Below, piece after piece: positions 5,966-36,713 of a DNA stretch of 64,000 bases. The translations under genes were made by a program, and so were the position numbers. The notes beneath the pieces were generated by a model. The model was not told the DNA's origin, did not search any database, and saw only the letters and a program-made list of their open reading frames with translations. Source of the stretch: Catenulispora sp. MAP5-51 (GTDB lineage Bacteria > Actinomycetota > Actinomycetes > Streptomycetales > Catenulisporaceae); contig NZ_JBGCCH010000002.1 of NCBI RefSeq assembly GCF_041261205.1, forward strand, positions 124,001 through 188,000, read 5' to 3'. Each line of letters opens with the position of its first letter. Positions within the stretch are counted from its first letter, which is position 1.

Positions 5966-7789
5966 TCAGTGCCCGCAGAGCTCGCCGACGGCGGCTGTGG
6001 GGTCGTTCTGCACCCGGAACTCTGTGCGGTCCACGGAGTCGACGATGTTCCGCAGGAACAGGTGGAACGTCATCGGCGACCGCGTCGCCTGGCTCAGCGT
6101 CTTCATATCCCCGCAGCCCAGGGCCCGGTGGGCCGCGTCGACGCCGGGCTCGGCGGCCGGCGGCGGGCCGGCGGGTGCGTTCGGCGCCACGAGCACCGGT
6201 GTGCTCCCGGGGACCGTGTAGTCGGCGATGATCCAGGACATCCCGGTCGTCTTCTCGTGGCCGATGCGGTGTCCGTTGGTCAGCATGTGCGAGCCCACCG
6301 CGTAGGAGAGCCCGTGCGTGTCGATGGCCAAGCCGTCCAGGGGCACGATGGCGCCGAGCGTGCCGAGGATGTCGCCGGGCAGCGCGATGGTGCCGTAGGA
6401 GGTCCGCAGCGGGAGCGTGACCATCTGGCCCTTGGCGTCCTGGTAGAACAGCGACCGGTGGTTGAACGGGTTCTGGCTGCCGGTGATCCGCTGCAGCGCG
6501 AGCGTCTCGTCGCCGGTGCCGACGACCATCTTCATGTAGGGCGCCGCGTCCACCGGGTGCGCGTCGCCGGTGCGCAGGACCCAGAACGCGCGCTCGTTGG
6601 TGATCCCGCTGTCGGCGATGACGATGGTCTGGTGCAGGCGGAAGCCCACCAGGCAGACGCCGGCCCAGACCGCGACGACGGCCATGGCCCCGACCGCCAG
6701 CTTCGCCCGCATGCCTGCCAGCGCCGGGAGCGGGACGGCCATCACCGGCATGAGGAGGGTGAAGGTGGAGGGCAGCAGCATGCGCGCGTGCATGAAGTCG
6801 CCGCCGATCCAGACGACGTACAGCGCCGACAGGGCGCCGCCGGCGGCCGCGGCGAGGATCACGAAGCGGTCGTGGCGGACGATGCGGCCCCAGGGCAGCA
6901 GCACGGGGACGGACGCGGCGATCAGCAGGACCGGCAGCCACAGCAGGTAGGGCGAGACGAAGTTGCCCAGGTAGGTCAGGCCCTGGCCCGGGTCCGAGGA
7001 CGAGGCTTCCTTGACCAGCGCTGTGTTGGGGACCAGCAGGCCGTAGTAGCCCATCCGGAAGACCTCGTACAGTCCCGGCACCGCGAAGGTGGCGGCGGCG
7101 AGCTTGACGGACGCCAGCCGGCCGGGCCGGACGATCAGGACCAGCGCGACCCCGAAGGCGAGCGTCATCAGCATCATGTCGGGCCGGACCACCCAGCCCA
7201 GGCCGACCACGGCGCCGGCGGCGTACACCCGGCCCTGCCCGCCCTCGGTCACCCGGCTCAGGAGCCACCAGCACAGCCCGAGCCAGCAGAAGATGAGGGA
7301 GGTCTCCAGCCCGGAGGTGACGAAGTCCCAGAACGGCGGCAGCGCCAGCAGCACAGCGGCGCCGAGCGGGATCAGCGGCCCGGACGCGCCGATCCGGCGC
7401 TGCACGTTGCGCGCGCCCAAAAGCGCGAACAGCAGGCCGGTCGGGGCCAGCACCAGACCGGTCCACTCGATCACCGTGTAGACGTTGGCCTGGGTGACCC
7501 ACGAGACCGCCGCGAGCAGCCAGGTCCACAGCGCCGAGGTGTTCGCCTCGACGCGCTCGCCGGGGTTGAAGACCGGTCCGTGCCCCGCGAGGATCTGCCG
7601 GACGGTCCGGGCCGCGATCAGCCCGTCGTCGGTGATCCAGCGGCGGTGCCAGCCCAGGAGGAGCCAGACGGCCGGCGGCAGCGCGATCGTGGCGTTGCCG
7701 AGGGCCGCGGACCAGCGGCCGCGCTCGGCCGCCGGTCCCGCGTCGTCCGCGGCAGGAGCGCGATCGCCCTCCAGGATCTCTATAGACAT
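5966..7789 (-). CDS. aftB: AftB/ZomB-like arabinofuranosyltransferase (GT-C membrane enzyme)
   Basis: The 607-aa product is close to the roughly 630 aa of mycobacterial AftB, which adds terminal beta-1,2 arabinofuranose from decaprenyl-phosphoryl-arabinose to arabinan outside the membrane. The family's N-terminal block is clear: RRWITDDGLIAARTV at 49-63, with the acidic pair D54-D55, then GPVFNPGERVEANTS near 71-85. About ten membrane spans follow to residue 390, and a soluble C-terminal part completes the protein. ATG 7789 is preceded by GGAGGGGAGCGGGG. It lies downstream of the DUF2079 gene on the same strand, with a hairpin between them. The exact sugar is inferred from family resemblance. 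Confidence 0.8.
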   Translation of the reverse strand: MSIEILEGDRAPAADDAGPAAERGRWSAALGNATIALPPAVWLLLGWHRRWITDDGLIAARTVRQILAGHGPVFNPGERVEANTSALWTWLLAAVSWVTQANVYTVIEWTGLVLAPTGLLFALLGARNVQRRIGASGPLIPLGAAVLLALPPFWDFVTSGLETSLIFCWLGLCWWLLSRVTEGGQGRVYAAGAVVGLGWVVRPDMMLMTLAFGVALVLIVRPGRLASVKLAAATFAVPGLYEVFRMGYYGLLVPNTALVKEASSSDPGQGLTYLGNFVSPYLLWLPVLLIAASVPVLLPWGRIVRHDRFVILAAAAGGALSALYVVWIGGDFMHARMLLPSTFTLLMPVMAVPLPALAGMRAKLAVGAMAVVAVWAGVCLVGFRLHQTIVIADSGITNERAFWVLRTGDAHPVDAAPYMKMVVGTGDETLALQRITGSQNPFNHRSLFYQDAKGQMVTLPLRTSYGTIALPGDILGTLGAIVPLDGLAIDTHGLSYAVGSHMLTNGHRIGHEKTTGMSWIIADYTVPGSTPVLVAPNAPAGPPPAAEPGVDAAHRALGCGDMKTLSQATRSPMTFHLFLRNIVDSVDRTEFRVQNDPTAAVGELCGH

Positions 7790-13525: not shown

Positions 13526-14212
13526 ATGACGGACTACAGCGACGTGTGGATCGTGATCCCGGTCTACAACGAGGGCGCCGTCATCGGCGACGTCGTGGAG
13601 AACACGCGCGCGACGTTCCCGAACATCGTCTGCGTCGACGACGGCAGCCGCGACGATTCGGCCGCGCGGATCGCCGAGACCGGCGCGCACCTGGTGCGGC
13701 ACCCGGTCAACCTCGGACAGGGCGCGGCCCTGCAGACCGGCATCGCCTACGCCCTGGCCCAGCCGGGCATGCGCCACCTGGTCACCTTCGACGCCGACGG
13801 CCAGCACCGGGTGGAGGACGCCGAGACGATGCTCGCCGTGGCCCGCACCGAGGGCGCCGACGTGGTCCTGGGATCGCGCTTCCTGGAGCAGAACGAGCAG
13901 ATCCCGCTGCTGAAGCGGATCGTGCTGCGCACCGTGGTGGCGCTGAGCCCCACCGCGCGCAAGCTCAAGCTGTCCGACGCGCACAACGGGCTGCGGGTGA
14001 TGAACCGCGAGGCCGCCTCCGGCCTGCGGATCACCATGAACGGCATGGCGCACGCCTCGGAGATCGTCGGCTTCCTGGCGAGCTCGGGGCTGAAGGTCCG
14101 GGAGGTCCCGGTCACCATCTTGTACACCGACTACTCGCGGTCCAAGGGCCAGTCGTTGATCAACGGCGTCAACATACTGTTCGACCTGTCGGTCCGGCAG
14201 CGAGGGGCGTAG
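13526..14212 (+). CDS. GT2 glycosyltransferase, polyprenol-phosphate-sugar synthase-like
   Basis: The 228-aa cytoplasmic GT-A protein starts WIVIPVYNEGAVIGDVVENT, has CVDDGSRDDS near 40 and the metal-binding D-x-D in FDADGQH near 88-92. Such short GT2 proteins usually transfer a sugar to polyprenyl phosphate. I chose ATG 13526 because AGGAGGAGG sits just upstream; the open frame extends back to 13415. DUF2304 begins 5 nt after its stop, and the same pairing recurs at 33731-34961. The pair resembles systems where a GT2 enzyme works with a small membrane partner. TACCAT at 13395-13400 could be its -10 element. Confidence 0.8.
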   Translation: MTDYSDVWIVIPVYNEGAVIGDVVENTRATFPNIVCVDDGSRDDSAARIAETGAHLVRHPVNLGQGAALQTGIAYALAQPGMRHLVTFDADGQHRVEDAETMLAVARTEGADVVLGSRFLEQNEQIPLLKRIVLRTVVALSPTARKLKLSDAHNGLRVMNREAASGLRITMNGMAHASEIVGFLASSGLKVREVPVTILYTDYSRSKGQSLINGVNILFDLSVRQRGA

Positions 14213-14217
14213 AACTC

Positions 14218-14643
14218 ATGTGGATCCAGTTCATCCTGATCGCGACCGCGATCGTGCTGTTCGTCTTCTTCATCCGCAGCTCGCACTCGGTCAAGACCCA
14301 GGCGTTCAAGCGCATCGGGTTCATCGTCTTCCTGGGCCTGAGCCTGGACGCCGTGCTGCGGCCGAACGACACCACCTGGCTGGCCCACAAGGTCGGGGTC
14401 GGCCGTGGCGCGGACCTGCTGCTGTACATGCTGGTCGCGGCCTTCGCGTTCTTCGCGGTGAACACCTTCCTGCGGTTCCGCAACCTGGAGCGCCGCTTCA
14501 CCGACCTGGCCAGGTCCATCGCGCTGCGCGACGCCCAGGCCCCGGCCGTGGTGACGGCGCCGGCGGCGCGGGTGCCGGCCCGGGCGGCCGAGAAGGAGGA
14601 GCCCGAGCCGGAGCCCACGCTGTCTGGAGGACCGGCTCGATGA
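14218..14643 (+). CDS. DUF2304 small membrane protein
   Basis: The 141-aa product has three hydrophobic segments (about 1-20, 35-50, 62-80). Then come a short basic amphipathic stretch, FRNLERRFTDLARSIALRD, and a Glu/Pro/Ala tail. Order and length fit DUF2304 proteins, which often sit beside GT2 polyprenol-phosphate glycosyltransferases and may anchor or activate them; that role is inferred. The start lies 5 nt after the GT2 stop, and its TGA overlaps the ATG of galE, so the three are translationally linked. A second DUF2304-GT2 pair lies at 33731-34961 in the opposite gene order. Confidence 0.75.
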   Translation: MWIQFILIATAIVLFVFFIRSSHSVKTQAFKRIGFIVFLGLSLDAVLRPNDTTWLAHKVGVGRGADLLLYMLVAAFAFFAVNTFLRFRNLERRFTDLARSIALRDAQAPAVVTAPAARVPARAAEKEEPEPEPTLSGGPAR

Positions 14644-16927: not shown

Positions 16928-17084
16928 GAAGCCGTCACGGGCTGCGCGGTCCGGTCACCCTGCGCATCCTTCACGTCACCCAGGGCACCAAGGCCTTGAT
17001 TGTGTCACAGCTTCTCCAGACCAGAAGACCAGCCCCGGTATCCACCGGGTAATCTCTACTGTCGCGCTCGGCAGGTCACGAACC

Positions 17085-19613
17085 ATGGCGCGGCACAGCC
17101 AAGGCACCAGTCAGCTTCGTTTCAGCGCAGGCCACAAAGAGGTTCCTTTGTCCACAACGAGTCAGGAGAAGGACGGTGCGGCGGAGGTCGCCACTCCGTC
17201 CCCCGCTCCCCACCGAATAGCGGGCTACGCCATACGGCGTATTTTGGAACCATTCTCGGTAGGGTTCAGCGCGGCCGTGCTGTTGTTCGCCCGGCTGATG
17301 TTTCCCACGCCGGTCGGCGTGGCGGACAACTACGACGGCAGCCGGCTGCTGTGCCATCTGGGTCTGTACACCACGGGCAACTCCGGCCAGATGCGCGCCT
17401 GGGTCAACTTCACATACGTGATCAAGCAGGGGTGGACCTGCACGAAGACCCCGTACGGCATCGGCACCAAGGGCGCCACGAACATCGACCTGCCACAGCC
17501 GGCGTACAACTCCAGCCAGCTGGTCCTGATGAACATCGCGCACTACCTGACCAAAGCGCTGGGACTGCATAACAAGATCGGACCGACCGCCCTGGACCTG
17601 CGGGTACTCGGTGCCGTGGGCTGCGTCTTCATCGGGATCGCGATCGGCTTGCTGTTCGCCGTCATGCGCGCCTCGCGGCTGTCCCGCTATCTGGTGTGCG
17701 GGGCCGTGCTGCTCATCGTCGCCGACGCCAGCTTCATCGATTTCGCCGCGTCCCCGCTCAGCGAGATCTCGGCCGTCATCGGCGTGCTCTTCCTGCTGCC
17801 GGCCATCCTGTTGCTGTTCCGCCCCGGCCGATCGCGCTGGGCGGGGTTGGCTCTGGGCTGCGGCGCCCTGCTTTTCCTGGTTACCTCCAAGGCCCAGGAC
17901 GCGCCGATGGTGGGCCTGGTCGTGCTGCTCCTGGCCTTCCCAGTCACCGTGGGCCCGCTCAAGGGCCGGGTCGGCAGCCGGGTGATCCCGGCGATGCTGG
18001 CCTTGGTGGTGGGCTTGGCCGGCCACGCGCTGACCCCCAAGCAGGACCCGCACTTCACGCTGCAGACCAAGGCCGACTTCCTGTTCAACGAACTGCTGTA
18101 CGTGAGCCCGACCCCGAAGGCCGACATGGCGGCCATGGGCGTGCCGTTCTACTACAGCTCACAGGTCGGCAAGCCCGCCTGGTGCCCGCCGTACTCGCCG
18201 AGCGTGATGGACACCGGGATATACGACCCGTCCACCAAGGGCGACAAGTACGTGGCGCGCGACCATTCGAACGACCCCGCGCTGCAGGCGGCCATGAAGA
18301 CCGGCAACACGTGGAAGTTCATGCTGACGCACCCGGACCGCATGGTCCGCGTCGCCAACGACGCCGCGAACGCCTTCTTCTATGTGCGTCCCACCTACAC
18401 CGGGCTGTGCGGTGGGACGCACAGTGCCCAGGCCAACCCGCTGGCCAACTACCCCGCGCCGCACGGCGCCAACGCCGTCGACAAGCGGTTCACCCCGGTG
18501 ACCAGCTTCCTGGGCCTGTTCCGCGGCCTGGGCCTGATCCCGCTGCTGCTGCTGTGGGCCATCCCGATCTGGGTCGCCGTCCGGCGCCTGGCCCGCCGGC
18601 GCGACCGGGTCACCGGTGAGCGCAAGGCCTTCGCGTGGATGACGTTGCTCCTGTCGGCCATCGCCCTGTTGCAGTTCGGCGCGGGGGCCTACTTCGACGG
18701 GATCGACACCTCCAAGCACCTCAACCTCTCGATCTTCGCCTCGGTGCTAGCCGTGGTGACCGCTGTGGCCACCGCCCGCCTGCGCCCCGAAGCGGCCGGC
18801 GTGGGCGCCGTGGGCGTCGTCGGGACCGCCCCCGACCAGATTCAAAGGAGCGAAACCGACGTGGAGTCCGAGGCCGAGGCCTTGAGCGTCCTGGTGATCA
18901 TCCCGACGTACAACGAGTCGGAGAACCTGGAGAAGATCGTCACCCGGGTGCACGCGGCGAATCCGGACGTGCACGTCCTGGTCGCCGACGACAACTCCCC
19001 GGACGGCACCGGCAAGCTCGCCGACAAGCTGGCCGGCGCGGACGAGCGAGTCAAGGTCCTGCACCGGGCCGGCAAGGAGGGCCTGGGCAAGGCCTACCTG
19101 GCCGGGTTCGCCTGGGGCATCGAGCACGGCTACGACGTCATCTGCGAGATGGACGCCGACGGCTCGCACCGCCCCGAGGACTTCCCGGCGCTGCTGAAGG
19201 CACTGGTGGCGCAGAACGCCGACCTGGTCCTTGGTTCGCGCTACGTCCCCGGCGGCAAGACGGTCGGCTGGCCCAAGCGGCGGGAGGTCCTGTCCAAGGG
19301 CGGCAACACCTGGGTCCGCCTGGTCACCGGCATGAAGCTGGCCGACGCCACCGGCGGCTACCGCCTGTTCCGGCGCGAGACGCTGGAGAAGATAGACCTG
19401 GCCTCCGTCGCCAGCGCCGGCTACACCTTCCAGGTCGACCTGGCCTGGCGCACCGTGCGCGCCGGCCTGAAGGTCGTCGAGGTGCCGATCACCTTCGTCG
19501 AGCGGGAGCTCGGGGCGTCGAAGATGAGCGGGAACATAGTCGCCGAGGCGCTGTGGCGCACCACCGTGTGGGGCACCAAGTACCGGCTGAGCCGCCTGGT
19601 CGGCAAGAAGTAG
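17085..19613 (+). CDS. ppm1: Membrane protein fused in frame to polyprenol-phosphate mannose synthase (Ppm1-like)
   Basis: This is one open frame of 842 aa. Residues 1 to about 585 are a membrane protein: a span near 50-70, an extracytoplasmic loop around [15 protein letters not shown], then about nine more spans. Residues 600-842 form a complete GT2 polyprenol-phosphate-mannose synthase: [33 protein letters not shown]690-A-D692 in EMDADGSH, and LGSRYVPGG. Mycobacterial Ppm1 is also a fusion, but to apolipoprotein N-acyltransferase, which this N-half does not resemble. An internal AAAGGAG followed by GTG 18861 could also yield the synthase alone. Alternative upstream start: TTG 17148 after AAAGAGG. 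Confidence 0.8.
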
Positions 19614-19735: not shown

Positions 19736-21472
19736 GTGACCACTATCGCCGCGGAGCCTGAGGCCGGCCCGCGAAGCGCAGGCCGGATCCGAGCGTCCAA
19801 CGAGCTCTGGTCCCGGGCCCTGACCGCCGGGCGCTGGCCGCTGTACGAGGCCGCCGTGGCCTTCGCGGCCGCCGCGTGGATGCTCGTCTCCACCAAGACC
19901 ATCAAGGTCTTCGCCCCGCTGGACCGGGTGAGCCAGGTCAGCGGTCTGGCGGCGCTGCAGTTCCGGTTCCTCGTCCCGGCCCTGGCCCTGGTGGTGTTCC
20001 TGCTGCTGGCCCGCCGGTCGGAGAAGTACCGGCTGCTGGCCTCACGGACCGCCTTCGCGGCGCTGCCCGGCTTCACCTCGGGCTTCCTGGCGGCCGGCGT
20101 GTCGCTGGCGCTGCGCGGCGCGAACCTGCCGCTGAACGGCACCGCGGGCGACGCCGGCGACATGGAGCGCTGGGCGATCATGCTCCAGCACGGCCAGATG
20201 ACGCACCCCGGCTACCCGCCGCTGTACCCGCGCATCGTCTGGTTCGTCGCGAAGTTCAGCCACAACAACGTCTTCCTCGGCCTGAAGCACACCGAGATCC
20301 TGACCACCGCGGTCCTGGGCCCGCTGACGTACCTGGCGTGGCGCTTCGTCGTCTCCCGGCCGTGGGCGTGTGTGCTGGCCCTGGTGTTCGTGCCGACGCT
20401 GGCCGAGCCGTACAAGGCCTACGAGCCGCTGGTGCTGGCCGTCATCATCCCGATCGTCATCGCCTTCCTGCGATACCTGCAGACCAGCCCCGCCAAGGGC
20501 CTGGTGCACCTGGCGATCGCCGGTCTGGCCTGGGGCCTGCTGGTCGGCGAGATCTTCATCCTGTTCGCCGGCCCCTTCTACTGGGCCGCGTTCGGCGTCT
20601 GCCTGGGCGCCGCGGTGATGTTCCCGTGGCGCACCGGATGGCGCCACGGCGCGACGCTGCTGGGCGCGACGGTGGTCGGCTTCCTGATCCCCTCGTACCA
20701 CCTGATCGACGGCCTGCTGCACGAGGCGCCGGACCCGTACTTCTTCTTCGGCACCAGCGTGGACCCCGCGTACACCTTCGTGTACCTCACCGACCAGCCC
20801 GGCAACGCCATCCGGAACGGCACCTGGCCGCCCACCGGCGAGCTCGGCGGCGTGGGCGTCTTCGGCGTCATCGTCCTGGTCCTGACCGGCGTGGCGATCT
20901 GGCTCGGCATGCGCCGCACCCCGGTCCTGCTCACCGCCGGCCTGCTCACCGGCGGCTGGCTGATGCGCTTCTACCTGGCCTCGCACGAGTACCGCGACCA
21001 GCTGGTCCGCTACTGGCCGCGCACCACGACGTTCTCGCTGTACTGCTTCCTGATCCTCGCGGTGTTCGCCGTCAAGCTGATCGGCGAGCGCGCCCAGGAG
21101 TTCCTGGCCGAGCACCAGCAGCTCACGGCGAGCGTGCGGGAGCAGGCGGCGGCTGCGAAGGCCAAGCCCGAGACCGAGGCCGCAGCGCAGGAGTCTGACG
21201 CCGAGACCGACACCCGCACCGAGGCCGAGGCCGAGGCCCGCGTGCCCGCGCAGCGGGGGCGGCGCACCGGCGGGCGTGTGGCGGCGCCGTTCCAGACCGG
21301 CATGGTCGGCCTGGCGTTCGCGCTCACGCTGTTCACCGGCATGTCCGCCTCGGCGGCCACCGACAAGATCATGCCGAAGAACGACGGCTCCGAGGGCCAG
21401 CTGGCCTGGCACGCGCACTTCGACTCCCCGGCGAACCTGGTGCAGGGGATCACGAAGGTCAACGGCAAGTAG
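19736..21472 (+). CDS. AftA-like arabinofuranosyltransferase (GT-C membrane protein)
   Basis: The 578-aa product has about eleven membrane spans. The loop after the third or fourth carries GTAGDAGDMERWAIMLQHG and YPPLYPRIVWFVAKF. A later loop has DPYFFFGTSVDPAYTFVY. This pattern recalls AftA, which in mycobacteria adds the first arabinofuranose to galactan from decaprenyl-phosphoryl-arabinose, though the long soluble C-domain of AftA is missing. Instead there is a Glu/Ala-rich charged stretch (about 465-510), one more span and a 35-residue tail. GTG 19736 follows AAGGA. It lies directly after the Ppm1-like fusion on the same strand. The family call is moderate; the exact sugar is inferred. 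Confidence 0.55.
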   Translation: MTTIAAEPEAGPRSAGRIRASNELWSRALTAGRWPLYEAAVAFAAAAWMLVSTKTIKVFAPLDRVSQVSGLAALQFRFLVPALALVVFLLLARRSEKYRLLASRTAFAALPGFTSGFLAAGVSLALRGANLPLNGTAGDAGDMERWAIMLQHGQMTHPGYPPLYPRIVWFVAKFSHNNVFLGLKHTEILTTAVLGPLTYLAWRFVVSRPWACVLALVFVPTLAEPYKAYEPLVLAVIIPIVIAFLRYLQTSPAKGLVHLAIAGLAWGLLVGEIFILFAGPFYWAAFGVCLGAAVMFPWRTGWRHGATLLGATVVGFLIPSYHLIDGLLHEAPDPYFFFGTSVDPAYTFVYLTDQPGNAIRNGTWPPTGELGGVGVFGVIVLVLTGVAIWLGMRRTPVLLTAGLLTGGWLMRFYLASHEYRDQLVRYWPRTTTFSLYCFLILAVFAVKLIGERAQEFLAEHQQLTASVREQAAAAKAKPETEAAAQESDAETDTRTEAEAEARVPAQRGRRTGGRVAAPFQTGMVGLAFALTLFTGMSASAATDKIMPKNDGSEGQLAWHAHFDSPANLVQGITKVNGK

Positions 21473-22646: not shown

Positions 22647-24131
22647 ATGACGCTGACCGCTATACGCCGCCTCGCCAAAACCCCCTCGGCGATGATGACG
22701 GCTTCGGTTCTCCTGGTCGCCGGCGGTGGCTACCTGTTCCTGATGCTGGCCGGCGGACTGACCGACAAGAACGAGGCCGCCGCCATGGCCTCGATGTACG
22801 TCCTGGTGAACCTCATCGGCCAGGGCGTCTTCGCGGGCCTGGAGCAGGAGACCAGCCGGTCCCTGAGCCGGGCGGTGGCCGTCGGGGAGGACACCGGGCC
22901 GGTCATGCGCCGCGCCGTCCGGCACACAGCCGCGCTGCTGGCGGTGTGCTGCGTGTTCGTGGTGGCCGCCTCGCCGCTGCTGGTGGCCGGGCCGCTGCAC
23001 AAGCAGTGGGTCCTGATCCCCACCGTGGTGATCGGCACCGTCAGTTACGCGCTGTCATACCTCGTACGCGGCCTGCTCGGCGGGCAGCAGCTGTTCGGCG
23101 GCTACTCCGCGACGCTCGTCGCCGAGGGCATGTCGCGCATCGTGCCGTGCCTGGCGATCGTGGCCATCGGCGCCGGATCCGCGCTCGTCTACTGCGCCGT
23201 GTACTCCTGCGGCCTCTTCTTCTCCGCCGGGATCGGCTGGTACTTCTGGCTGCGGCCCCGTTTGGCGCGGCAGCACGCTGAGGCGGCCGGCACCGCGAAC
23301 GCCGCCGCCAGCACAGGCACCGGCACAGGCACCGGCACCGGGCCTACCGGGCCGACCGCCGCCGGCCTGGCCGCCGACTCCCTCACCGACCCCACCACCG
23401 ACTCCCCCGCGTCGGGCCTGCGCGCCTGGTTCTCCGCCGGCCTGCTGTTCCTCGTCGGCGCGGCGCTGCTGACCCAGCTGGTCGCGAACCTCCCGGCGCT
23501 CGGCGCCAGCTCCCGCCTCGGCGCGCACCCGGCCACGGCCACCGCCTTCGTCCAGGCCGCCACCCTGGCCCGCATCCCCCTGCTGCTCGTCGGTCCGGTG
23601 ACGGCGCTGCTGCTGCCGCGCCTGACGGCCGCCGGCGCCGTCGGCGACATGCGCGCGGTGCGCACCACGGTCCGCAACGGCTCGATCGCCATGCTGGGCC
23701 TGGGCTCCGTGGCCGGGGCCGGGCTCGGGGTGATGGGCCCGTGGGTGCTCAAGACCTTCTTCCACGCCAGCGGGATCTCCGCCCTGTCCCTGGTGCTGAT
23801 GGCGATCGGCACCGCGGGCCTGATGACGGTCGGCGTCCTGCAGCCGACGCTGATCGGCCTGGGCCGCCAGCGCCAGGTGCCGATCGCCTGGGTCGCCGGC
23901 GCGGTCGCCATGGGCGTGGCCGTGGTGTGGCCCGGCGACCCGGTCTCGGCGGCGGTCACCGCCTCGCTGGTCGGCCCGGCCGGCGTGGTCGTGGCGATGG
24001 CGTTCAGCCTCAGGGGTCTGCGAGACGCCCGCTTCACCGGGGCCGAGGACGCCGATCCGGCGGCACCGGCCGACCCAACCGATCCGGCCGATCCGGCGGG
24101 AGCAGCGGCCCCGGCGGCCAGCCGGGTGTGA
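22647..24131 (+). CDS. Wzx-type polysaccharide flippase (MOP/MATE superfamily)
   Basis: The 494-aa product has about twelve spans in the arrangement of lipid-linked oligosaccharide flippases, which move undecaprenyl-linked glycans across the membrane. The loop GQGVFAGLEQETSRSLSRAV near 58-77 has a close match in the flippase at 35134 (GVLAGLEQEMTRTVAR), so the two are paralogues. A Thr-Gly repeat linker (STGTGTGTGTG) at about 220-235 comes from GGCACC-type hexanucleotide repeats at about 23310-23345. The C-terminus is an Ala/Asp/Pro repeat. ATG 22647 has only a weak upstream GGTGA. DUF2142 genes follow on the same strand. Confidence 0.75.
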   Translation: MTLTAIRRLAKTPSAMMTASVLLVAGGGYLFLMLAGGLTDKNEAAAMASMYVLVNLIGQGVFAGLEQETSRSLSRAVAVGEDTGPVMRRAVRHTAALLAVCCVFVVAASPLLVAGPLHKQWVLIPTVVIGTVSYALSYLVRGLLGGQQLFGGYSATLVAEGMSRIVPCLAIVAIGAGSALVYCAVYSCGLFFSAGIGWYFWLRPRLARQHAEAAGTANAAASTGTGTGTGTGPTGPTAAGLAADSLTDPTTDSPASGLRAWFSAGLLFLVGAALLTQLVANLPALGASSRLGAHPATATAFVQAATLARIPLLLVGPVTALLLPRLTAAGAVGDMRAVRTTVRNGSIAMLGLGSVAGAGLGVMGPWVLKTFFHASGISALSLVLMAIGTAGLMTVGVLQPTLIGLGRQRQVPIAWVAGAVAMGVAVVWPGDPVSAAVTASLVGPAGVVVAMAFSLRGLRDARFTGAEDADPAAPADPTDPADPAGAAAPAASRV

Positions 24132-33730: not shown

Positions 33731-34510
33731 TCATCGGCGGTTGATCGCCAGCAGCAGCGTGATCAGCGCGCGCCCCAGGTACACCGCCGCCTTGACCGGC
33801 GAGTTGCTGGGTGTGCCGGCGGCACGCTGCCGCATCGCCACCGGCACCTGGCTGACCGGGTGGCCCAGGCGGATGACGTGGACCAGGGTCTCGACGGTGT
33901 CGCCCAGGTACTCGACCGGGTACCACTGCGCGAACAGCTTGATGATCTCGCGGTCGCAGGCGCGGAAGCCCGAGGTGGTGTCGTCCAGCTTGGTCTTCGC
34001 CATCCGGGACAGGACCCGGGACAGCAGCGTCATGGCCCAGCGGCGCGGTCCGCGCACCTGGTAGTCGCCCTCGCCGGCGAAGCGGGCGCCCAGGACCAGC
34101 CGGGCCTCGCCCAGCCCGTCGATGAGCTTGGGAACGTAGCGCGGGTCGTGCTGGCCGTCGGCGTCGAGCTGGATCGCGATGTCGTAGTCGTTCTCGTCGG
34201 CGTAGCGGTAGCCCAGGCGCATGGCGCCGCCGACGCCCAGGTTGTACGGCAGCGAGACGACGCGGGCGCCGCAGGCCAGGGCCACGCGCTCGGTGTCGTC
34301 GGTGGAGCCGTCGTTGACGACCAGCACGTCGTAGGCCGGGAGCACGTCGCGGGCCTCGGCGATGACGTCCGCTATCGAGCCGGCCTCGTTCCACGCCGGG
34401 ATGATGATCAGGACGCGCTTGTCGACGTCCATGCCGGTGTCCGTGTCAATGCCAGTGCCAGCGTCAGTGCCAGTTCCAGTTCCAGTGCCAGCGTCCATGT
34501 CAGCGTTCAC
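33731..34510 (-). CDS. GT2 polyprenol-phosphate-sugar synthase-like enzyme with Gly-Thr repeat N-terminus
   Basis: The 259-aa product has VLIIIPAWNEAGSIADVIAE near 33-52, VVNDGSTDDTERVA, LPYNLGVGGAMRLG and the D-x-D in QLDADGQHDP. TTSGFRACDREI is the family's acceptor-side segment. The first 30 residues are Gly-Thr-Asp repeats encoded by hexamer-like repeats (34432-34500). GTG 34510 overlaps the DUF2304 stop by 11 nt; ATG 34498 or ATG 34432 are possible starts, the last deleting the repeat but lacking a binding site. The DUF2304 pairing copies the pair at 13526-14643. It may charge a polyprenol phosphate for external transferases; inferred. Confidence 0.8.
   Translation of the reverse strand: MNADMDAGTGTGTGTDAGTGIDTDTGMDVDKRVLIIIPAWNEAGSIADVIAEARDVLPAYDVLVVNDGSTDDTERVALACGARVVSLPYNLGVGGAMRLGYRYADENDYDIAIQLDADGQHDPRYVPKLIDGLGEARLVLGARFAGEGDYQVRGPRRWAMTLLSRVLSRMAKTKLDDTTSGFRACDREIIKLFAQWYPVEYLGDTVETLVHVIRLGHPVSQVPVAMRQRAAGTPSNSPVKAAVYLGRALITLLLAINRR
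34432..34500. repeat. Degenerate hexamer repeat encoding Gly-Thr/Asp
   Basis: Units of the GCCAGT/GTCAGT/GTCCGT type repeat about eleven times, reading Gly-Thr or Asp-Thr on the minus strand at the N-terminus of the GT2 gene. Changes in copy number would keep the frame and only alter tail length. Confidence 0.6.
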
Positions 34511-34961
34511 CGACGACCGCCTTCCCGTCCCGCTGGGTCACGATCCCGACGGTGCGACCGTTCGCCCCGCCGGCCCGGTGCGCCCGCGCGTCCTCGACCT
34601 CGGCCTCCAGCTCGGCGTGCTTCTCCTTCACCTCGCGCAGGTCGGCCCGGATCAGCGCGACTTCCTCGGCCAGCGACCGGGTCTCGTCCTCCAGTCGCGA
34701 GGCCTCCCAGCTCAGGTGGATGCACACGATCAGCAGGAACACCACGGCCAGGAACAGCACCAGGCTCGCGCCGCTGGCCACGCCCAGCCAGCTGGAGACG
34801 TTGTCCAGCGACCACGGGATGAAGCCCAGCGGCAGCGTGACGAGCCCGACGACCAGCCACAGCACGGCGTACTTCTCGCGCAGCTGGCGGCGGCGGAGCA
34901 ACTCGAAGATCAGTGCCAGCAGCAGGAGCGCCACGACACCGGTCATTATGGCCAGCTTCAT
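34500..34961 (-). CDS. DUF2304 small membrane protein
   Basis: The 153-aa product has three hydrophobic spans (about 2-21, 34-52, 65-86). A long charged coiled-coil follows: SRLEDETRSLAEEVALIRAD, then heptad-like Glu/Lys/Ala to about residue 130. LREKYAVLWLVVGLVTLPLG is typical of DUF2304. ATG 34961 follows GGGAG. The gene overlaps the following GT2 by 11 nt. Compared with the DUF2304 at 14218, this one has a real coiled coil rather than a low-complexity tail, which could serve to bind the partner GT2. The partner role is inferred from repeated adjacency. Confidence 0.8.
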   Translation of the reverse strand: MKLAIMTGVVALLLLALIFELLRRRQLREKYAVLWLVVGLVTLPLGFIPWSLDNVSSWLGVASGASLVLFLAVVFLLIVCIHLSWEASRLEDETRSLAEEVALIRADLREVKEKHAELEAEVEDARAHRAGGANGRTVGIVTQRDGKAVVGER

Positions 34962-35133: not shown

Positions 35134-36636
35134 TCATCGGCGCACCCCTTCCGCGACGGGCGCGGCCTGCCCGGAACCCCGGGCCGGCACCGGCGGCGCC
35201 TGCTCGACCGGGGCCGGATCCGCCGCGCCGGCCTCGGCCGCGCCGGTGGTCGCCGACGGCGCCGATCTGGTCACGAACATCACATCGGCGGCCGCGATCA
35301 CCGTGACCGCGAGCGGCCCCAGGATCCCGGCCCAGGCCGCCGCCCCGAGCGGCGACAGCGGCAGCGCGAAGACCACCGCCATCGCGGCCAGCCCGGCCAG
35401 CCACGAGGCGAAGACCACCCGGTGCCGGTTCAGCGCGACCTGCGCGGACTGCAGGACGAAGGCGGTCATGAGGAACGCGGTGCTCAGCGCGAGGGCGGCG
35501 AGGAAGGGACGGGACAGCGGGGCGGAGGTCCCGAAATAGGACTTCAACAGCCAGGGTCCGGCCACGGCCACGGCGGCCACGCCGAGCACGCCGGCACCGA
35601 GGCAAGCCCCGACCAGGAAGCCGGTCTTCCGGCGCACCTCGCGGAAGTCGCCCCGCACAGCGGCGGCCGCCAGCAAGGGGAGCAACGGTGCCTGGAGCGG
35701 GAAAAGGCAGAGCAGTGCGAGCCGCGACATGCCCATCGCGGAGTTGAGCGACTTCGCGACGTCGGGGTGCAGGCGCGGACTGATGATCAGGGGGACCGCG
35801 TTGATCAGGAGCTGGCTGACCAGGGTGGCGAGGGTCAGCAGGATCAGCTTCTCGCGCGGGCTGCCACCGGGTTCCTCGGCGGCGTCCGGGACAACCGCGG
35901 TCGGCAGGCTCTCGGCACCGTCGCCCGCGGCGACGACCTCCTCGGCAAGGTCCGCCGCACCGGCCGGAGAAGCGGCGCCGGTCGCCCGCCACGAGTGCCG
36001 CAGGGCCGGCGAGGCCAGCCCGCTGAGCGCGGCGACCAGCGGCGCGAGCGCGAAGATCAGGGCGTATCCGAGCAGGTGCCCGTGGCCGGCCAGGGCCAGG
36101 ACCAGGCTCGGCACGATCGTGGCCACACCCTGCACCACCAGCGTGAGGCTGTAGTACCGGAAGTCCTGGCAGCCCGCCAGCACCCCGCGCACCAGGAAGG
36201 ACACCCAGGTCGCGGCCAGTCCGGCCAGCAGGGCCAGCTCCATCGGCCAACTATGGTGGAGCCAGTGCGAGAGCAGCAGCGGCGACGCCGCGATGAGAGC
36301 CACGACCGTCACCGCCGCGAGCCCGAGGGCCTGCCGCAGTTGGCCCCGCACCGCGAGCCCGACCGCCCGGCCTGAGGCGTGGGTGCGCGCGACGGTGCGC
36401 GTCATCTCCTGTTCCAGACCGGCGAGCACCCCGGTGCCGATCGTCCCGACCAGGAAGTAGAAGGACAGCAGAGCTGTCACCGAGGGGTTGTCCAGAGAGC
36501 GGTTCGCGGTCGCGATCCACAGGGAGCCCGCCACCGTCGTCGATCCCAGCCCGATCGCCAGCAGCGGACCGGGGGTGGCCAGGCGGCTCAGGACGGAGCG
36601 CACTGGGCGCGGGCGCTCGGCACTGGGAGGGGACAC
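35134..36636 (-). CDS. Wzx-type polysaccharide flippase (MOP/MATE superfamily)
   Basis: The 500-aa product has about twelve spans. GVLAGLEQEMTRTVARTHAS and FLVRGVLAGCQDFRYYSLTL match equivalent segments of the flippase at 22647, which marks them as paralogues. A long central loop (about 220-275) is Ala/Glu/Pro-rich. It would flip lipid-linked glycan to the outside. I chose GTG 36636 because minus-strand TACCAT ends 8 nt before it and it begins just ahead of the hydrophobic region. The frame is open to GTG 36693, which would add 19 residues. It is divergent from the GT2 at 36714 and lies upstream of DUF2304 and three GT2 genes. Confidence 0.75.
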   Translation of the reverse strand: MSPPSAERPRPVRSVLSRLATPGPLLAIGLGSTTVAGSLWIATANRSLDNPSVTALLSFYFLVGTIGTGVLAGLEQEMTRTVARTHASGRAVGLAVRGQLRQALGLAAVTVVALIAASPLLLSHWLHHSWPMELALLAGLAATWVSFLVRGVLAGCQDFRYYSLTLVVQGVATIVPSLVLALAGHGHLLGYALIFALAPLVAALSGLASPALRHSWRATGAASPAGAADLAEEVVAAGDGAESLPTAVVPDAAEEPGGSPREKLILLTLATLVSQLLINAVPLIISPRLHPDVAKSLNSAMGMSRLALLCLFPLQAPLLPLLAAAAVRGDFREVRRKTGFLVGACLGAGVLGVAAVAVAGPWLLKSYFGTSAPLSRPFLAALALSTAFLMTAFVLQSAQVALNRHRVVFASWLAGLAAMAVVFALPLSPLGAAAWAGILGPLAVTVIAAADVMFVTRSAPSATTGAAEAGAADPAPVEQAPPVPARGSGQAAPVAEGVRR

Positions 36637-36644
36637 GAGATTCG

Positions 36645-36650
36645 ATGGTA
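36645..36650 (-). promoter_or_regulatory. Candidate -10 element before the flippase start
   Basis: Minus-strand TACCAT lies 8 nt before GTG 36636 with no ribosome-binding site between, consistent with a leaderless or very short leader transcript. Confidence 0.35.
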
Positions 36651-36713
36651 GTCGATGCCAATCGGCACAATATACGCTTGTAGATTCCGTCACTGAAAGG
36701 TGGGTTCCCCGCG

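Follow-up and report, generated by a model that had tools for sequence, protein, structure and literature searches.

The gene described here lies in a 64,000-nucleotide stretch of the Catenulispora sp. MAP5-51 genome (contig NZ_JBGCCH010000002.1, positions 124,001 to 188,000), which as a whole is referred to as the window and from whose first letter the coordinates are counted. An open reading frame (ORF) of 842 codons, uninterrupted by a stop, runs over 17085-19613, and its product joins an N-terminal membrane domain that resembles the hexose transferase WsfD and glycosyltransferases of the GT-C class to a C-terminal polyprenol-phosphate-mannose synthase (Ppm); all of the features of this gene lie on the forward strand. 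A complete Ppm-type domain fused to a membrane protein had been claimed in an earlier reading of the letters (the original prediction), and the open frame together with a Pfam match to GT2 (PF00535) at residues 604-770 (E 8.7e-32) bore this out. Residue numbers follow the 842-residue frame counted from ATG 17085.

The start of the gene had been placed at this ATG, which has to be corrected. In the nine fused genes that were compared at the start and linker sites (L012-L020), the position of 17148 holds TTG or GTG with AAGAGG ahead of it (9/9), and the main-start Shine-Dalgarno sequence AAAGAGG (17136-17142) forms a duplex of -7.0 to -7.4 kcal/mol in all nine. No counterpart of ATG 17085 was seen by eye in the homologues that were readable that far (L019 starts too late), and L014 and L016 have, also by eye, a stop in its frame just upstream. 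Since AAGAGG and TTG/GTG are conserved, ATG 17085 is unmatched and its frame is closed in two homologues, TTG 17148 is most likely where translation begins, as judged from sequence comparison; this would give a gene at 17148-19613 and a protein of 821 amino acids, and the in-frame extension at 17085-17147 is probably untranslated.

Domain architecture of the fused protein

Residues 60-561 (17262-18767) match the NCBIfam family NF051875, glycan biosynthesis hexose transferase WsfD (E 9.2e-65); the N-terminal half alone scored 219.1 bits against a cut-off of 80, and positions 3-451 of the 452 in the profile were covered. The protein database labels this half PF27133. In the family search that had been proposed for residues 1-585, the copy of Pfam used gave no match at E<=1, PF00795 included, and the apolipoprotein N-acyltransferase (Lnt) was rejected as the fusion partner. 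The partner, which had been described as an unrelated membrane protein, is indeed not Lnt, but it is no orphan, as it matches the WsfD family. Hydropathy indicated ten transmembrane segments with a positive-inside pattern, the first of which precedes an outer loop of 102 residues, and the predicted topology places the ADNYDG loop outside and the synthase inside. The motif of this extracytoplasmic loop (17322-17354, including A80-C90) was delimited from the topology and an alignment of ten WsfD sequences, in which A80, N82, D84, R87, L88 and C90 are invariant and D81 is nearly so; D84, an acidic residue of the first outer loop, may be catalytic. Because the full-length model gave structural matches for the synthase half only, the N-terminal half was folded separately, and the structure comparison then matched GT-C proteins (rows 1-33), in line with the GT-C-like character that had been predicted. 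A sequence profile search of the PDB for WsfD gave 0 matches. The model suggests a GT-C fold with a large first outer loop, and by analogy this half would pass a lipid-borne hexose on to a glycan.

The synthase domain occupies 18861-19613. Both a GT-A fold and a DxD motif are present, the latter as D690-A691-D692 (DAD, 19152-19160), which aligns with the DxD of the dolichol-phosphate-mannose synthase 5mlz. This structure, which we take to be the enzyme of Pyrococcus furiosus, is the closest solved fold for the domain; it differs in having no GT-C partner and presumably carries a C-terminal membrane domain of its own. The domain is 61% identical to Mycobacterium tuberculosis Ppm1, and its product would be polyprenyl-phosphate-mannose made from GDP-mannose.

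Distribution and phylogeny of the fusion

A search of ten Catenulispora genomes showed the full fusion in nine, including the single-contig genome G004. In the tenth, G007, which is a 77% complete bin, a fragment retains the linker and ends in PTR-stop, and the stretch around it gave no synthase match; either the synthase half was lost or the assembly is at fault. Among the matches listed for 60 relatives, sorted by E-value, full-length ones were found in Catenulispora only. WsfD exceeded its cut-off in 1/396 Actinomycetota genomes, which was the genome studied here, reached E<=0.001 in 13/396, and was found in 0/14 control genomes. In the protein database, 13 of the 19 relatives of the N-terminal half have both domains (the protein of the window included), five have PF27133 only and one is fused to PF09594. 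Of the PF27133-only proteins, P0013 and P0014 bear names that mark them as partial and extend into the start of the synthase, P0016 ends short, P0019 diverges near its end and P0018 has a different tail. Of 868 relatives of the synthase domain that are of fusion size, 120 were listed; among these, 13 were WsfD fusions, 90 had PF00795 and 17 were other proteins. The fusion is a new combination of two known families that is conserved within one genus where it was seen. No account of a Ppm/GT-C fusion was found in the literature searched, which is weak evidence because only open-licence papers were covered, and the excerpts of PMC12331936 and PMC12691653 hold nothing on it.

The WsfD tree united 17 fused rows, a count that takes in P0013 and P0014, with the G007 fragment in one group (99/99), and P0018 and two PF09594 fusions fell outside it. 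On the trees made, the fusion arose once, in the Catenulispora lineage. The two outside fusions, the metagenome proteins P0021 and P0129, carry WsfD behind a PF09594 domain and represent a second kind of WsfD fusion; P0129 was added by a profile search.

A separate synthase gene, 87% identical, is present in the genome studied here, and a complete standalone gene was found in 8/10 Catenulispora genomes. G003 has a 145-residue synthase fragment at a contig edge that may be of the fused or the standalone kind, and none was among the matches listed for G005 (90% complete). In the synthase tree, 16 fused and eight standalone Catenulispora rows formed one clade (100/100) apart from the ten rows of other genera; this separation points to a duplication of the synthase within the lineage. 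The fused and standalone rows were not cleanly split: the fused P0009 grouped with standalone copies, the standalone copy of G007 sat among fused rows and L016 branched at the base. Because the two kinds intermingle, sequence exchange between them or assembly mixing (L049, P0009) is likely.

Possible internal start codon and linker

As the original prediction stated, an in-frame GTG (18861-18863, codon 593), which would be a possible internal start of a 250-residue synthase, is preceded by AAAGGAG (18844-18850, 10 nucleotides before). The GTG is in frame in 9/9 fused genes. Pairing of the internal site with the 16S tail reaches -8.4 kcal/mol in the gene studied and -7.8 to -8.9 kcal/mol in L012-L016 (5/9), and is weak, at -5.3 to -6.3 kcal/mol, in L017-L020 (4/9); the start sites of the eight standalone genes give -7.2 to -7.4 kcal/mol. 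A Shine-Dalgarno match of at least 6 nucleotides occurs at 6/1092 in-frame internal start codons of the ORFs called in the window, GTG 18861 included, where the ORF starts are approximate and at least one of the six (13526) is probably a true start. The expected chance of at least one such site is about 27% for the gene (57 internal start codons) and about 2% for the four start codons of the domain linker.

The linker (residues 566-600, 18780-18884) uses codons that are rare in the 17 ORFs of the window that served as a reference (AGA 0.4% and AGG 2.0% of Arg, GAA 8.5% of Glu), and in each of the nine fused genes it is among the lowest 1-12% of the 11-codon windows. These codons are compatible both with selection on a ribosome site and with the remains of an earlier leader. 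In the five-genome clade, 7/8 codons at the site whose amino acid is invariant are also identical; the corresponding fractions are 0.61 for the WsfD part and 0.69 for the synthase part, and the difference is not significant (binomial against 0.61, 0.12). RNA folding gave no signal at either start site (z -0.05 and 0.17), and a promoter scan gave 0 sites for the internal start with an E. coli-type consensus. Restart at GTG 18861 is possible, on this evidence, in the species studied and its four nearest relatives among the genomes compared.

Genomic context

The gene lies within a surface-polysaccharide cluster with sugar-nucleotide enzymes, several GT2s, an acyltransferase, dTDP-rhamnose genes and further membrane proteins. 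L054, L055 and L056 retain most of the surrounding gene order, whereas it is rearranged in L076, L077 and L078. Upstream of the gene, at 17044-17067, TCTACTGTCGCGC is kept, by eye, in six of the eight homologues with upstream sequence (L012-L016 and L020) and has a variant form in L017 and L018; it is perhaps part of the promoter. Three long proteins of the cluster (19736-21472, 22647-24131 and 35134-36693) have no Pfam match, and the first adjoins the fusion in 3/6 fused loci with wider flanks (L054-L056, not L076-L078). On the reverse strand, the product of 5966-7789 scored 285.9 bits against the terminal beta-(1->2)-arabinofuranosyltransferase NF041481, far under the cut-off of 1050, and may be a distant AftB-type relative in this glycan cluster. 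There are also two pairs of GT2 and DUF2304 genes, at 13526-14643 on the forward and 33731-34961 on the reverse strand, and the GT2 of the latter resembles PpgS (96.9 bits, cut-off 370). Elsewhere in the genome, two more WsfD paralogues, both unfused and on the reverse strand, exceed the family cut-off (L073:6848-8464 and L074:6924-8465), and an ORF near the former resembles, by eye, DUF2142 proteins.

Discussion

We consider it probable that the fusion unites the maker and the user of one lipid-linked sugar: the synthase would make a mannolipid inside, and the WsfD half would use it outside for a surface glycan. The C-terminal GT2 domain would move mannose in the cytosol from GDP-mannose onto polyprenyl phosphate, as its homology suggests; the mannolipid would still have to cross the membrane, and the WsfD-type GT-C domain would take the mannose from the flipped lipid at the outer face and add it to the surface glycan of the surrounding polysaccharide cluster. 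With the conserved loop predicted on the outer and the synthase on the inner side, catalysis by the two halves would take place at opposite faces of the membrane. The fusion would set the donor supply beside its consumer and may allow channelling between them.

This reading draws on the WsfH/WsfD model, the GT-C enzymes that use polyprenyl-phosphate-mannose, the two-domain Ppm1 and the multi-component glycosylation systems. For the S-layer glycan of Paenibacillus alvei, mutants showed that both WsfH and WsfD are needed for the branching glucose, and it was proposed that WsfH charges the lipid carrier from which WsfD transfers; no flippase was in that cluster, and on which side of the membrane the transfer occurs was not settled (PMC2943079). 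In both organisms, a membrane protein of the WsfD family would draw a hexose from a carrier lipid, but in P. alvei there are two genes and the sugar is glucose, whereas in Catenulispora there is one chain whose maker resembles a mannose synthase. GT-C enzymes that use polyprenyl-phosphate-mannose have been described, as has the two-domain Ppm1 (PMC3485146), and other species encode Lnt and Ppm in two genes that lie next to each other (PMC3460810). In Streptomyces coelicolor, ppm1 is reportedly required for infection by phage phiC31. M. tuberculosis Ppm1 (Rv2051c) likewise has the membrane domain first and the synthase second in one polypeptide; its partner, however, is an N-acyltransferase and that in Catenulispora a GT-C glycosyltransferase. 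Multi-component systems have been described in two papers, neither of which has the words "fusion" or "fused" in its main text (PMC8035078, PMC11127046). The three-component GtrA/GtrB/GtrX systems also combine a cytosolic lipid-sugar synthase with an extracytoplasmic GT-C enzyme. In Catenulispora, by contrast, the B-like and X-like parts are fused and no gene of the GtrA family (PF04138) was found on contig 2; the family occurs at five places in the genome, on contigs 3, 10 and 26.

Several observations weigh against a maker-user pair. The synthase half reached no NCBIfam cut-off (AglJ was best with 85.4 bits against 325, PpgS scored 64.0 bits against 370 and no Ppm1 model was among the matches), and for this reason its product is assigned by similarity. 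The model of the N-terminal half is moderate (predicted local distance difference test, pLDDT, 70), and Foldseek alone gave it nothing under 0.001 (best 0.017). The fusion may be dispensable in the metagenome bin without the synthase half, and for the WsfD paralogue that the genome carries on contig 4, the 15-kb stretch examined held no synthase gene. Moreover, P. alvei WsfD was proposed for glucose, not mannose, and the authors could not exclude cytoplasmic transfer (PMC2943079).

An error of sequencing or assembly that joined two genes, which the original prediction would have accepted had homologues always been two genes with a stop between them, is refuted by the nine genus genomes, single-contig G004 among them, and by the 13 two-domain database relatives; its probability is practically nil. 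The WsfD half might instead be an anchor that recruits the synthase to the membrane and runs its own reaction with another donor, without any pathway pair. Ppm-type synthases are indeed fused to unrelated membrane proteins elsewhere, as the frequency of Lnt domains among their listed relatives shows, and domain 1 of M. tuberculosis Ppm1 holds to the membrane by six segments (PMC3485146). However, WsfD itself, unlike Lnt, has been modelled as a user of lipid-carried sugar (PMC2943079) and the fused form retains the conserved outer-loop residues, and we regard a mere anchor as unlikely. A one-chain transmembrane relay that needs no separate flippase, combined with a free synthase from the internal start in part of the genus, seems quite improbable.

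The internal GTG bears on whether the gene also yields a free 250-residue synthase that feeds other mannosyltransferases, as the original prediction had suggested. The strong Shine-Dalgarno sequence of the gene studied, the GTG conserved in frame, the low chance of such a site in the linker and the codon identity in the five-genome clade speak for it, and a restart is possible in the species and these four relatives. Against it, the site is weak in 4/9 genes whereas the main-start site is uniform, a complete standalone gene exists in 8/10 of the genus genomes, no promoter-like site was found by the E. coli-type scan, and the linker keeps its rare AGA codon in genes with a weak Shine-Dalgarno sequence, as expected of a relic; a second product is rather unlikely. 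The site could also be a remnant of the ancestral synthase leader, left when a duplicated ppm was joined in frame behind wsfD, for which we see not quite an even chance. In the eight standalone copies, GAAAGG precedes a TTG or GTG start at similar spacing, and the rare AGA, AGG and GAA codons and the duplication of the synthase within the lineage agree with such a history. The alignments of linkers with standalone leaders were mixed: of 18 pairs, the score was reached by 0-14 of 500 shuffles in four (L020-L042, 0; L012-L042, 6; L017-L042, 11; L017-L047, 14) but by 18-198 in the other 14.

Systems that decorate extracytoplasmic glycans rely on an intracellular lipid-sugar maker, a flippase and a GT-C enzyme that acts outside. 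If the maker and the user are paired as we propose, this natural fusion links a synthase with a predictable product to a GT-C enzyme whose donor is unproven. It would thereby offer a handle on the WsfD enzymes, whose membrane side was left open, and a compact system in which to ask how a charged lipid crosses the membrane.
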